NCBI RefSeq assembly: GCF_000177375.1
Contig: NZ_ADFR01000003.1
Location: forward strand, 124,001-188,000
Direction: 5' to 3'
From: Bulleidia extructa W1219
GTDB taxonomy: Bacteria; Bacillota_I; Bacilli_A; Erysipelotrichales; Erysipelotrichaceae
DNA length: 64,000 nt
Shown: positions 7,089 through 13,080 of the stretch, in pieces
Position numbering within the stretch: position 1 is the first letter of the stretch
Layout: each line of letters begins with the position of its first letter
Notes under the pieces: model-generated
Database searches by the model: none
What the model was told of the DNA's origin: nothing
The model's input: only the letters and a program-made list of their open reading frames with translations
Made by a program: the position numbers and the translations under genes

Positions 7089-7811
7089 GTGGAAAAAATT
7101 CAACCAACTCGAGAATGGCTTGCAAAGTATGAAGAGGTGAAACACTTTCTGGTATCACCAATCAATTATGCAACATGTTTTGAGATGAATGAAATTCAAG
7201 GTAAAGAAGTAGTTGTACTTGATATGGGAGAGGTGAGTTTTCCAAGTGGCGAAATTTTGGTAAGAGATCCATTGGTCTGGTTGCGTAAAGATGAAAAACC
7301 ATATTTACAATCGGTTCCGGTAGGTAGATATAAATTGGAAACCTTGGTGATTAAGATAGAAGAAGAACATGATAGATATATGGCAACTAGGGTTAAATTT
7401 ACTGACAAAAAACCGATCATCTATCAAGAAGCGTTAAGGGGGGATGAGGATCTTTCCTCGGTTCAAGAAGGTAGTTTTTTTGGCTTTGAAGTAGATGCAG
7501 GACTTGCAACCATTGTTGATGTACAGACAAAAAATGTATACTGTGATTTTGAAAAAAGGTGGTATCAGGAACATCCTGACAAGAATATCTACGATGATTT
7601 TTTTGCGGAAGTATTTCGACAAAACGCATTGAAATACCCGTTATATCAAAGAGAAGGTGGAGATTGGATCAACTTTGAAATTCCAGGTACGGAATTATCT
7701 ATCCCGATGATTCAATCGGGATTTGGAGATGGGGTATATCCGGTGTACTTTGGATATGATAAAAATGGTCATCTTTGTGATGTCGTGATGGAATATATTT
7801 TAGTGGGTTAA
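7089..7811 (+). CDS. DUF4241-like protein
   Basis: This 240-residue soluble protein starts with GTG behind AAGGAGG. The composition and conserved patches (LDMGEVSFPSGEILVRDPLVWL, split here as LDMGEVSFPSG then EILVRDPL; VDAGLATIVD; and the C-terminal GFGDGVYPVYFGYD followed by a hydrophobic strand) match my recollection of the DUF4241 family. That family is often found singly or near toxin and immunity genes; its biochemical role is not established. It stands at the left edge of an accessory segment of small, low-GC genes. The family call is by recognition only. Confidence 0.62.
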   Translation: MEKIQPTREWLAKYEEVKHFLVSPINYATCFEMNEIQGKEVVVLDMGEVSFPSGEILVRDPLVWLRKDEKPYLQSVPVGRYKLETLVIKIEEEHDRYMATRVKFTDKKPIIYQEALRGDEDLSSVQEGSFFGFEVDAGLATIVDVQTKNVYCDFEKRWYQEHPDKNIYDDFFAEVFRQNALKYPLYQREGGDWINFEIPGTELSIPMIQSGFGDGVYPVYFGYDKNGHLCDVVMEYILVG

Positions 7812-7822
7812 AAGTGGGAAAT

Positions 7823-7936
7823 ATGAATATCATTGGGCAAGTCATTGGCTATATTCATGATCCAAATGAAGTGACATATGTCGCATTGGGCATTGAGGAG
7901 CGGGTTTCAGAGATTGATTTTATGAAAGAAGTTTAA
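7823..7936 (+). CDS. Very small ORF (37 residues), possibly a gene remnant
   Basis: ATG at 7823, eleven bases after the DUF4241-like stop codon and behind a weak GTGGGAA site, opens a 37-residue frame that looks like the start of a folded protein (MNIIGQVIGYIHDPNEVTYV) and then ends. Its last 17 bases overlap the 3' end of the convergent NERD gene. It may be the surviving N-terminus of a gene truncated when the neighbouring DNA was rearranged, or a genuine micro-protein. No family is recognised. Confidence 0.3.
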   Translation: MNIIGQVIGYIHDPNEVTYVALGIEERVSEIDFMKEV

Positions 7937-8555: not shown

Positions 8556-8722
8556 TTTATAGATCATCCTTTCTTTATCATTTATATTATCGTTTTTGGA
8601 GCTTAAACCGGAGTGATTTAGGATAGAGGTATCACGACGATTGCCTTCATTTACTTGTGATGATCCAAGACCATTTAAAAATTTTTGATTTTATAGTCAT
8701 CCCTTATACCATCTTTTTTAGT

Positions 8723-9366
8723 TCAAGAACAGTCGTATAAATTTTCCAATAATTTCATCTCTTTTTGCAATATTTTTTTCGTTTCTAACACTTTCAGCAA
8801 TTCTTTTAATTGAATATCTGAAATATAAATGCTTCTATTATTTTCTTGTGATAAATCATAACATTGTCTGATAGCTATCCCAATATGAGACAATGTCAAT
8901 TTGTCTTTTTTTGTTTTAAAACTTCTATAAAAAGATCCCAAACAAACGTTTGTCTATATATCCAAAAAAATGATGCAATTCCTTGTAATACTTTAGGATG
9001 TATCTGTTTTTTAAGCAGATCATAGGCATATTCTTGACTTCTTTCTTCAAAATTTTGAATAGTATCTTCTGTCATGATATCTGAGTCAATGATATACAGA
9101 TGATTTAAATGAAGATATCTTGCACAAAAATTTTGTAATGTATATAGATATATCCATATCATCTCAGGGTCTGTTTCTTCTTTTATAGCGGACAAATAAT
9201 TTTCTGTATTGACAATAAACCATTCTTTTACAGGTTTTGTATTTTTAGTTCCAAGCTCAGCACAAGCAGCTCTCATAAAAAATGTTGCGGCTTTTTTGCG
9301 CTCTTTTATATCCTTGCTTTGTAGGTTGTCTAAGGCAGTGTCCAGTATCTCCATTGTATATTTCAT
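8723..9366 (-). CDS. Helical protein of unknown function joined across a -1 frameshift
   Basis: Two minus-strand frames overlap. The first runs from the ATG at 9366 (AGGAG eight bases upstream) to a TGA at 8896, 156 residues. The second is open from 8941 to 8723 and continues the same helical character, but its only start is a TTG with no ribosome binding site. Shifting by -1 at the heptamer A AAA AAG (8911-8905) yields a continuous product of about 214 residues passing through LKQKK-DKLTLSHIG. A perfect 9-bp hairpin lies 8 bases downstream. So this is either a programmed frameshift or a gene broken by a homopolymer indel. The product is almost all alpha-helical, perhaps HEAT-like. It follows the TPR gene by 14 bases. 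Confidence 0.55.
8861..8911 (-). promoter_or_regulatory. Candidate -1 ribosomal frameshift signal
   Basis: On the minus strand the slippery heptamer A AAA AAG (8911-8905) is in frame with the upstream ORF. It is followed by an 8-base spacer and a perfect 9-bp stem ACATTGTCT / AGACAATGT (8896-8888 with 8869-8861) around an 18-base loop. The zero-frame stop TGA (8898-8896) falls where the stem begins. Confidence 0.5.
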
Positions 9367-9380
9367 ATAAATGACTCCTA

Positions 9381-10496
9381 TCAAAATTTATGCCTAACAC
9401 AGTCCACCATATAACATGAATACTCTGGATATAACTTCAATTCCATTGCCGGTCTTGGCGCATTCTTCTTGATGCGGGATATCATTTCCTCAAAATCCTC
9501 TTGATCTTTTTTCCAGCTTGCGATAGTGTTTTGTTTTTCTTCTTCGCTATCGTAATCTTCATCGGCTATAGCCTCTTTTATCGTCTCATCAAAGTAGGTT
9601 CTATTCTTTTCTTCAAGTTTGGAAAATCGCTCCATTTGTCCTTTTATCCATAGAGTATAAAATAAATGATCCCAATTTGCTGTATAACAATCGTTGTCTA
9701 CTTCTTCAATACAATAAGATAGAAATGTATCGTATTCTTCCAGTGCATAATAGGCATCAAAAATTTGATACTCTGAGATATCATCCGTGCTCAAATCATA
9801 ATGATCATCTTGTCCGGGCCTTATCTGTTCTAAATAGAAAATCGCTTTCTCTTTGTTTCCAAGATTTACTTCACAATAAGCAATACATAGCTTAAGCCAC
9901 ATTCTGTCTGGATTATTTCTAAGCAAGTTCAAGAATAGTTCCTTTGCTTTGTGGTATTCTTTCAGTTCATAGAGAGATACCGCATAATTTAAAGAATACG
10001 CATAGTTTTCATTCATATTTTTGGCTATTTTAAAATATTCATGACTGATTGATATGTTTTTTTCGTTTCTATAGAACTCGTATTCAGAAAAATAGTAAAG
10101 TCCAAGAGCGGTGTATGTTTCTGCAAATGGTGATTTTAAATCTTTCGCTTTATTCAAATACTCTAATGCTTCTTTAGAATAATCTTTGCCAAACGCAATG
10201 TTTGTATAAATTCTTGCTTTCTGCTTGTGATTTAAAATTTCCCAAAACTGATCCAAAAACTCTTCTAGTAATTTTATATATTCCAATTCACCAGATCCAA
10301 GCTCTAACTGCACGGACGCAAGTGTACATATCGTATCGACATCTGAGGGGTATTTTTTATGCCTTGCCAGAAGATAACTTTTCATTTTTTCAAGATATTC
10401 TTTTGAACTTTGAAACTCTTTTAAAAACGGTTTGTTATATTTATTTTCATACTCTGTTTTTAATTGATGCCAATAATTTTTGATTTCATCTAACAT
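9381..10496 (-). CDS. TPR-repeat protein
   Basis: This 371-residue cytoplasmic protein contains tandem tetratricopeptide-like helical pairs over about residues 90-235, such as SPFAETYTALGLYYFSEYEF, NYAYSLNYAVSLYELKEYHK and DRMWLKLCIAYCEVNLGN. TPRs mediate protein binding. The C-terminus is acidic (ADEDYDSEEEK) and then basic. An AAAAGGATA site lies about 11 bases before the ATG. The frameshifted helical gene follows 14 bases downstream, so the two are probably co-transcribed. Paired helical-repeat genes of this kind often act as immunity or regulatory partners in accessory loci, but no function can be assigned from sequence. Confidence 0.65.
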   Translation of the reverse strand: MLDEIKNYWHQLKTEYENKYNKPFLKEFQSSKEYLEKMKSYLLARHKKYPSDVDTICTLASVQLELGSGELEYIKLLEEFLDQFWEILNHKQKARIYTNIAFGKDYSKEALEYLNKAKDLKSPFAETYTALGLYYFSEYEFYRNEKNISISHEYFKIAKNMNENYAYSLNYAVSLYELKEYHKAKELFLNLLRNNPDRMWLKLCIAYCEVNLGNKEKAIFYLEQIRPGQDDHYDLSTDDISEYQIFDAYYALEEYDTFLSYCIEEVDNDCYTANWDHLFYTLWIKGQMERFSKLEEKNRTYFDETIKEAIADEDYDSEEEKQNTIASWKKDQEDFEEMISRIKKNAPRPAMELKLYPEYSCYMVDCVRHKF

Positions 10497-10613
10497 GTTT
10501 ACTAATATCCTTTTTGTTGTATTTGTTTTTTTGTTTTAAGTTTTTCGACATTTGCCAAAATCACCAAAAAATCTTACTTTAATAATTCAGATCGTGTCAT
10601 CATTTTTTATACA

Positions 10614-10938
10614 TCAACTCTCTACCCACTTTTCAATATCCTCTACTGGTATAGTTGATGAAAGTAGTTTTTGATCTGTATCATTTTCATCCACTAAAAC
10701 CACTTCTTTTTCTTTTGGAAAATATGTCCTTATCCATAAAATAAAATTTGCATAGTCTAAAATTCTATGATTTGAATGAAAATAAAATAATCGATTGCAA
10801 ATGTACATCGTTTTCTATCTATTCTTAACTCAAACTGATATTGATCCGAATATTTTTCCTTAATAGCTCTATTAAATTTTTCATATCAAAATCACTATTT
10901 TCACTTTCTTTTAAATGAATAAAACGGGTGATAGACAT
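10614..10938 (-). pseudogene. Small protein gene broken by two frameshifts
   Basis: An intact ribosome binding site (GGAG) and ATG at 10938 start MSITRFIHLKESENSDFDMK in one frame. Coding-like sequence continues as KEKYSDQYQFELRIDRKR in a second frame and as HSNHRILDYANFILWIRTYF through to EDIEKWVES in a third, ending at 10614. Two single-base changes, one near a TT run at about 10866 and one in the T-rich stretch near 10780, would restore one protein of about 107 residues. The family is not recognised. Either the gene is decayed or the assembly has homopolymer errors here. Confidence 0.55.
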
Positions 10939-11319
10939 TCTCAACTCCAATCATTGTTAACGTTTGATTGATTCGATGCTTTGATATGGTACATCATCTT
11001 CAAAACAACACTCTCTATATGATGAAACGAGTGAACACTATGTATGTCAAGTAGTCCTGTTTGTATGTGGAAACATATCTATAAACATTTTAACGATAGG
11101 TAGTAGTTATCATTAAGTTAAAATGTATCAGACTATAATGGCCCAATGATATAGGCCACTTTTTAGGGCATGTTTTAATGAATCTGATTCTGTTTGTGAA
11201 AATATATCTTAAGAACTATTCAAGTTGTTTACAGTACTTCTTGATTATTCTATCATATGTGTCTTTGTTGAAATCTTGCCGTGTAATATACAATTTATAT
11301 CTTTTTAAAAATTGATCAT
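10939..11319. other. 380-base region without an intact gene
   Basis: It holds the frame-shifted C-terminal extension of the nuclease-like gene (11216-11322) and a terminator-like hairpin at 11139-11165. I see nothing else supported in the remainder. Confidence 0.5.
11139..11165 (+). terminator. Terminator-like hairpin without an obvious gene
   Basis: A TGGCC / GGCCA stem with a ten-base loop is followed by CTTTTTAG. Its right side resembles the terminator before the uracil permease gene (GGCCACTTTTT then AGGGC), but no PyrR-type site precedes it. Confidence 0.35.
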
Positions 11320-11322
11320 TTA
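11216..11322 (-). other. Out-of-frame C-terminal extension of the nuclease-like gene
   Basis: Immediately after a seven-T run (11328-11322), the -1 frame stays open for about 35 codons with coding character (TRQDFNKDTYDRIIKKYCKQ) to a TAG at 11216-11218. It looks like the native C-terminus separated from the main frame by a one-base indel. Confidence 0.5.
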
Positions 11323-13080
11323 AAAAAATTTTTCTATTGCACAATATGGGCTTATTTCATAATTATTGTTTTTTCTAAGAAAATCGATAAATGTATTTGC
11401 TCTTTTATTTATAAATAATTCTAGAGATAACATCCTTATTATGAAATATTTCTTATTTATATTATCAATATAATGTATCACGGGATTATTGGCAGTAATA
11501 AAATTGTATAATTTTGTATCTTTTAAAATATATATTCCCTCTCTTTCAACAAAGGAATAAGAAATATTTGTTAATAAAACCGGGACTACATTTACATTAT
11601 TTATATTGCAATTAATGGCATTAAGCTTTGAATTGATGCTTTTCTTACCATTTTCATCCTCGGTAAAATATTTTAAATTACGTTTAAATTTATCAATGTA
11701 ATAGTCTAGTTCCTGAATATTGCGACAATATCCTCTCACATTATCATGCTGAAATTGAGTTTTGCACTCAATGACAAATAATGTATTATCTATATATAGT
11801 AAAATATCTAATTCGTAACTCTCACCATTACTACTCGTATTGACATTCTTAATAGCACTAAGATTGTATCTTAATAATAACTTATGTATGTAATCTTCAT
11901 ATTTGGAACCCTTTTTCGATATTTCATTATTATTGGTAAAAAGAACCATTAGACTTTTTAGTGGTTCAATCATTTTTATTATTGATGGAAGTAAAAGTAT
12001 AAAATTGTTGTATTCAATTAAAAATGATGAGAATAAATCATTTTTGCTTTTACCAAATACCAGATGATTAAAAATAGCCTTTATTTCATCTACACTAAAT
12101 TTGTTTTGAAATAAATCATTTTTTAATTTTTCTTTATCTATTTTTAGTACGTTTTTTTCATTAATAGCTAGTTTGTAGAAGTAAGTGTAGATGGAAACCC
12201 ATCTTTCCAGTTTTATGCCTAGGTATTCTTCAGTTAAGTCATCACTATAAAAGAATTCTTTTAATTTTTCTCTAAAGGCATTTGAATATTTAATTATCTC
12301 ATTTCCATTATCAAAATCTTTCAAAGTTTTAACATGATTTAAATTATAATATTCTAAAAATGAAAATATTCTATCTGTAATTATTCCATGGTTTTCACTA
12401 ATATATAATTTATTAAATAATCTAGTATTTACTTTCACATCTCCGAACATCCAATTACCGATTATATCATTTACTAAATTGAGTAACTGAATTAAAACTA
12501 GGATATCATTTACATCTTTATCATCAGCATTTTGATCATATGGCAACTTGCCATTTATAAATCCATTTCTAAGCAATGTTCCAAATCCTAAAATGATATT
12601 TTCGCTAGAAGCTAGATATTGTTGTTGCTCATACTCAGATGAAGTTTTACTTAATTTATCTAAATTTATAGATATTTGATCATTAAACCTTTCCACCAAG
12701 TTTAAATATGAACACTTCATCAGTTCAATTTTTAATATATCTTTTTTTATTTGATTTCTTTTTTTATTTAGTTTATCACCCTCTTTAGATAATCGTCTAA
12801 ATTTCTTATAACTATTATCTGAAAGGTTATCTTTAACCCAATTTTTTATTATACGTTTAGTATCGTTACTAAATAATGTTTCATTTCTATCTGTAACAAA
12901 AAAACCAGAGTATTTTAAAACTTTTAGTATTTCTTCCTCATTTTTGTTTTTGTTAATATAATCCAAATAGTCTAAAGGATTTTTCTTTATATTTCTTTCA
13001 ATTGAATTTATTCTCACATCATTGTATTTCTTACTCATATGAATACCCATATTATTTTGCCAACATTTATCAATTTCCAT
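11320..13080 (-). CDS. Large protein with a PD-(D/E)XK-like nuclease motif
   Basis: This 586-residue protein is rich in Asn, Lys and Ile. A long helical N-terminal part (about residues 1-385) precedes a restriction-endonuclease-like core: GSKYEDYIHKLLL near 392-404, YELDILLYIDN near 420-430 and FVIECKTQF near 434-442, i.e. the E, D and E-x-K of a PD-(D/E)XK nuclease. Such proteins are often defence or DNA-repair enzymes, but the family is not identified. In-frame ATGs at codons 1, 11 and 15 all lack a clear ribosome binding site; the longest is given. The stop codon follows a T7 run and 35 coding-like codons continue in the -1 frame to 11216, so the C-terminus may be truncated by an indel. 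Confidence 0.6.
   Translation of the reverse strand: MEIDKCWQNNMGIHMSKKYNDVRINSIERNIKKNPLDYLDYINKNKNEEEILKVLKYSGFFVTDRNETLFSNDTKRIIKNWVKDNLSDNSYKKFRRLSKEGDKLNKKRNQIKKDILKIELMKCSYLNLVERFNDQISINLDKLSKTSSEYEQQQYLASSENIILGFGTLLRNGFINGKLPYDQNADDKDVNDILVLIQLLNLVNDIIGNWMFGDVKVNTRLFNKLYISENHGIITDRIFSFLEYYNLNHVKTLKDFDNGNEIIKYSNAFREKLKEFFYSDDLTEEYLGIKLERWVSIYTYFYKLAINEKNVLKIDKEKLKNDLFQNKFSVDEIKAIFNHLVFGKSKNDLFSSFLIEYNNFILLLPSIIKMIEPLKSLMVLFTNNNEISKKGSKYEDYIHKLLLRYNLSAIKNVNTSSNGESYELDILLYIDNTLFVIECKTQFQHDNVRGYCRNIQELDYYIDKFKRNLKYFTEDENGKKSINSKLNAINCNINNVNVVPVLLTNISYSFVEREGIYILKDTKLYNFITANNPVIHYIDNINKKYFIIRMLSLELFINKRANTFIDFLRKNNNYEISPYCAIEKFF

Follow-up and report, generated by a model that had tools for sequence, protein, structure and literature searches.

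Does the gene on the minus strand between positions 9366 and 8723 of the window (the whole 64,000-nucleotide stretch of DNA analysed here) produce two proteins by programmed −1 ribosomal frameshifting, or is it a single gene that has been broken by a change in the length of an A run? An earlier note proposed the former from the layout of the site and named an indel in the A7 run as the alternative. Here we examined the anatomy of the site, the coding potential of its downstream frame, the chance level of its signals, and other genes of the same assembly that break in a similar way.

The frame-0 ORF (9366..8896, minus strand) encodes 156 aa, starting at an ATG at 9366 with a good Shine-Dalgarno (SD) sequence, AGGAG, approximately 8 bases 5′ of it, and ending at a TGA stop at 8898-8896. 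It overlaps an open stretch in the −1 frame (8953..8723, minus strand), and joining the two frames gives a 214-aa fused product, to which the part of the −1 stretch after the A run contributes the C-terminal 60 residues. The junction is the sequence C-AAAAAAA-G (8913..8905, minus strand), read as CAA AAA AAG, so that the A7 run and its G (8905..8912, minus strand) form the heptamer A AAA AAG in register, as in the X XXY YYZ slippery sequence of a dnaX-type signal. After an 8-base spacer, ACAAATTG (8904..8897, minus strand), comes a hairpin (8861..8896, minus strand) in which ACATTGTCT (8896..8888) pairs with AGACAATGT (8869..8861) in a perfect 9-bp stem with an 18-base loop. This places a candidate stimulatory structure within the 5–8 bases downstream that a dnaX-type signal calls for, and the 46 bases after the heptamer have a predicted fold of −12.0 kcal/mol. 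Upstream of the heptamer, the nearest thing to an SD-like stimulator is a GAAG approximately 10 bases 5′, in TAGAAGTTTTAAAAC. The −1 tail lacks an ATG at its start and a search for an SD-like site found none, although a TTG in the −1 frame overlaps the frame-0 TGA stop (ATTGA). The heptamer in register at the overlap, the spacer and stem, the second ORF devoid of its own ATG or ribosome binding site, and the fused product of about 214 residues were all described in the earlier note, and each was borne out by the sequence.

The −1 tail is coding. With a codon model trained on 453 long ORFs from a 714-kb sample of the same genome, the tail scores +0.17 bits per codon when read in the −1 frame, whereas the +1 frame gives −0.18 and frame 0 gives −0.71. 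The median for 60-codon stretches of real genes is 0.25 bits per codon, and the tail stands at the 28th percentile of real gene segments. Its score beats 99% of off-frame open segments (99% of which fall below 0.10 bits per codon) and was reached by 0 of 5,000 random open sequences. Since the tail has gene-like codon usage, the two frames make up a single gene, and one 214-residue protein is or was encoded across both. Such a tail is expected under recoding and under an indel alike, and it decides between neither.

The source assembly is a 1.42-Mb draft genome in 16 contigs, and break rates were taken from the 714-kb sample of it. We screened the sample for coding composition that switches frame at a homopolymer and added a tblastn search with the proteins of G096, a closed, one-contig genome of the same genus. 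Ab initio listing of overlapping frames let through too much at first, and the list was cut down before use. At least eight other, mostly conserved, genes in the sample are split at A6–A8 runs: recN (L035:10862), a divIB/ftsQ-like gene (L045:12483), priA (L051:6337), an ATPase subunit C-like gene (L053:2763), a serine dehydratase gene (L057:5535), rqcH (L058:9868), dusB (L060:17504), and a HAD phosphatase gene (L061:17137), where L numbers denote pieces of this genome. For recN, dusB, serine dehydratase, RqcH (NFACT), and the HAD phosphatase, the two pieces align with successive parts of the same family. The ATPase subunit C-like split rests on tblastn, while the priA and divIB/ftsQ-like (POTRA domain) splits rest on one half of the gene together with coding composition.

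The tblastn comparison gave 10 breaks per 288 kb aligned in this assembly and 2 per 299 kb in G096 (Fisher p ~0.02), with four of the ten clean and some doubtful. The excess arises partly because this assembly has more long runs, 226 of length 7 or more in conserved coding sequence against 129 in G096. Two of the tblastn breaks were discarded, one in L048 with a start codon downstream of the apparent break and one at L060:8974 that may reflect a gene fusion in the relative, and those in L046, L052, L056, and at L060:3908 were set aside as unclear.

The serine dehydratase gene is the most direct counterpart of the site. It is split at GAA AAA AAG, where A AAA AAG, its register, and the direction are all as at our locus; in more than 20 relatives it is one uninterrupted frame of 402–420 codons. 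Since this gene is broken at the same heptamer yet intact in relatives, the heptamer is not diagnostic and adds little to the case for recoding. It is also common, with A AAA AAG occurring in frame 119 times in the 714-kb sample among ORFs of 100 aa or more.

These observations bring the site close to the alternative that the earlier note had raised, which fits better than recoding in view of the eight other genes split at A6–A8 runs. Both frames belong to a single coding unit, and breaks at similar sites occur in other genes of the assembly. At our locus the frame changes exactly at the homopolymer, with coding sequence on either side, and conserved genes split at similar runs elsewhere in the assembly are intact in relatives. 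We infer that the defect lies in this particular A7 run. The locus would then be one gene for a helical protein of approximately 214 residues, split by a one-base defect in run length, most likely a homopolymer-length error in the draft assembly and less likely a real, recent indel turning the gene into a pseudogene. A one-base defect would by itself leave an in-register A AAA AAG wherever an A7G run has this register and direction, and the hairpin would be coincidental. Altogether, the best explanation of the site is very probably a homopolymer-length defect at the A7 run, introduced most likely in assembly. The likelihoods we attach to this and to the other readings are our judgement and not computed values.

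The literature points the same way. In a survey of 1,106 genomes, frameshift genes occurring as singletons were mostly explained by sequencing errors, indels, or overlapping genes, and recoding was credited with 146 of 19,430 clusters (PMC3711429); this is the only prior specific to ORFans that we found. Our locus resembles the singleton frameshift genes that this GeneTack survey reports from draft genomes, being a single gene split at an A run without a conserved split family (PMC3711429). It likewise resembles the survey's homopolymer breaks in that other genes of the assembly are split alike, and differs from them in the stable hairpin that follows the site.

That hairpin is the sole remaining argument for recoding, and it counts against the indel reading to the extent that a correctly spaced 9-bp stem is uncommon. 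At a spacing of 5–10 bases, a perfect 9-bp stem follows 0.15% of conserved coding positions and an 8-bp stem 0.38%, while a fold of −12.0 kcal/mol or more stable is reached by 3.4% of 46-base coding stretches. Apart from our site, the sample has 118 in-frame A AAA AAG heptamers, two of which are followed by a stem of at least 8 bp. One of the two lies in a prmC-like gene, so named from sequence (L061:13154-14005, minus strand), where the stem has 8 bp and the fold is −12.3 kcal/mol. The −1 frame of this gene closes after six codons, so heptamer and hairpin stand together there without recoding, and the combination therefore arises by chance in this genome. The folds at the other eight break sites range from −1.4 to −6.7 kcal/mol, none comparable to that seen here.

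Programmed −1 frameshifting, in which a hairpin-aided slip at A AAA AAG yields products of 156 and 214 residues at a set ratio, accounts for the heptamer in register, the spacer, the 9-bp stem with its stable fold, the stop codon soon after the site, and the coding tail in the −1 frame. The position of the stem also suits it, as stimulatory structures usually begin 5–8 bases past the motif (PMC4066793). Against it stand the serine dehydratase gene, whose break shares heptamer, register, and direction with our site and which is intact in relatives, and the prmC-like gene with its chance heptamer and equally stable hairpin. In addition, A AAA AAG is absent from the dnaX gene of this genome, and no homologue of the split gene was found, hence none that keeps the signal. 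The lack of a clear SD-like stimulator upstream weighs on the same side, though such an element is not required in all frameshift signals (PMC4066793). We consider recoding unlikely, and retain it at that level mainly because the hairpin is uncommon and the other eight break sites lack a comparable fold. Thus, of what the earlier note had proposed, the anatomy and the single coding sequence stand, whereas frameshifting itself is not favoured, given eight other A-run splits that include the serine dehydratase at the same heptamer.

Known frameshift signals offer a partial likeness. Our locus shares with E. coli dnaX the in-register A AAA AAG and a downstream stem. In E. coli dnaX, frameshifting makes the shorter product, with an SD-like element upstream; here the shift yields the longer product and a clear SD-like element is not seen. 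In the orfA/orfB pairs of the IS3 family, which use A AAA AAG with a stem or pseudoknot, the shift also yields a longer fusion product. However, neither part of our gene has similarity to a transposase in Pfam or NCBIfam. There is a slim chance that the locus is a genuine −1 frameshift of the dnaX type, by which an accessory gene that has no known relatives makes short and long ARM/HEAT-like helical forms in a fixed ratio. If the recoding were real, a chromosomal accessory gene would join the few bacterial −1 frameshift genes on record, as a rare case in a bacterial chromosome that is neither an IS element nor dnaX. As it stands, A AAA AAG in register where a gene is broken counts for little as evidence when the genome is an AT-rich draft, since a one-base defect in an A7G run, given the right register and direction, creates it and this assembly has several A-run breaks in conserved genes. 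Frames at A runs in this assembly should not be trusted without reads.

Two further readings fare worse. In transcriptional slippage, RNA polymerase would insert or skip a base while copying the A run. A fraction of the transcripts would then carry the full-length reading frame, and the same process might rescue the other genes split at A runs. Several conserved genes of the assembly split at A6–A8 runs would fit this. Bacterial slippage on A or T runs has been described, often on runs of eight or more (PMC3711429), and is also treated in PMC1088944. However, seven A's are short for efficient slippage and the split genes are intact in relatives, as errors would predict, making this reading very improbable. 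Least credible of all is a pair of translationally coupled proteins, with termination at the TGA and restart at the −1-frame TTG overlapping it (ATTGA), as a TTG start with no SD-like site upstream would make a product of just ~58 residues without a family match.

The protein itself has little to compare with. The fused 214-aa sequence has no homologue in its own genome, in 60 relatives, or in samples of genomes from the order (316), class (395), and phylum (392), and none in genome contigs, viral contigs, phages, or plasmids; the searches returned just weak partial matches at the level expected by chance. Pfam, NCBIfam, and PADLOC assigned it to no family. Single-sequence structure prediction of the 156-aa product gave an all-helical model of low confidence (pLDDT 68.9). 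Foldseek matches of this model in the PDB were weak and ARM/HEAT-like, none with E ≤ 0.001, and were not used as evidence.

The split gene adjoins the gene for a TPR-repeat protein (9381-10496), with which it is probably co-transcribed. In G096 the corresponding place, beside the RNA methyltransferase gene, holds other genes, and the split gene is therefore accessory. The closest named matches of the neighbouring RNA methyltransferase gene are in Erysipelotrichaceae, for example in Breznakia and a Solobacterium MAG, and the genome is accordingly placed in that family. From this setting one might guess at an accessory immunity- or scaffold-like role for the split gene.

Positions 8578-13080 of the window, flanked by a NERD-domain gene and the RNA methyltransferase gene, form an AT-rich island whose GC skew is reversed. 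Besides the TPR protein, the island encodes a 586-aa protein with a weak CARF-PDDEXK/NERD-like match. Elsewhere in the window, at 7089-7936 on the plus strand, a DUF4241 gene (7089-7811) is directly followed by a 40-codon ORF in its −1 frame. This ORF has coding-like composition and no SD sequence, and is perhaps a gene remnant.
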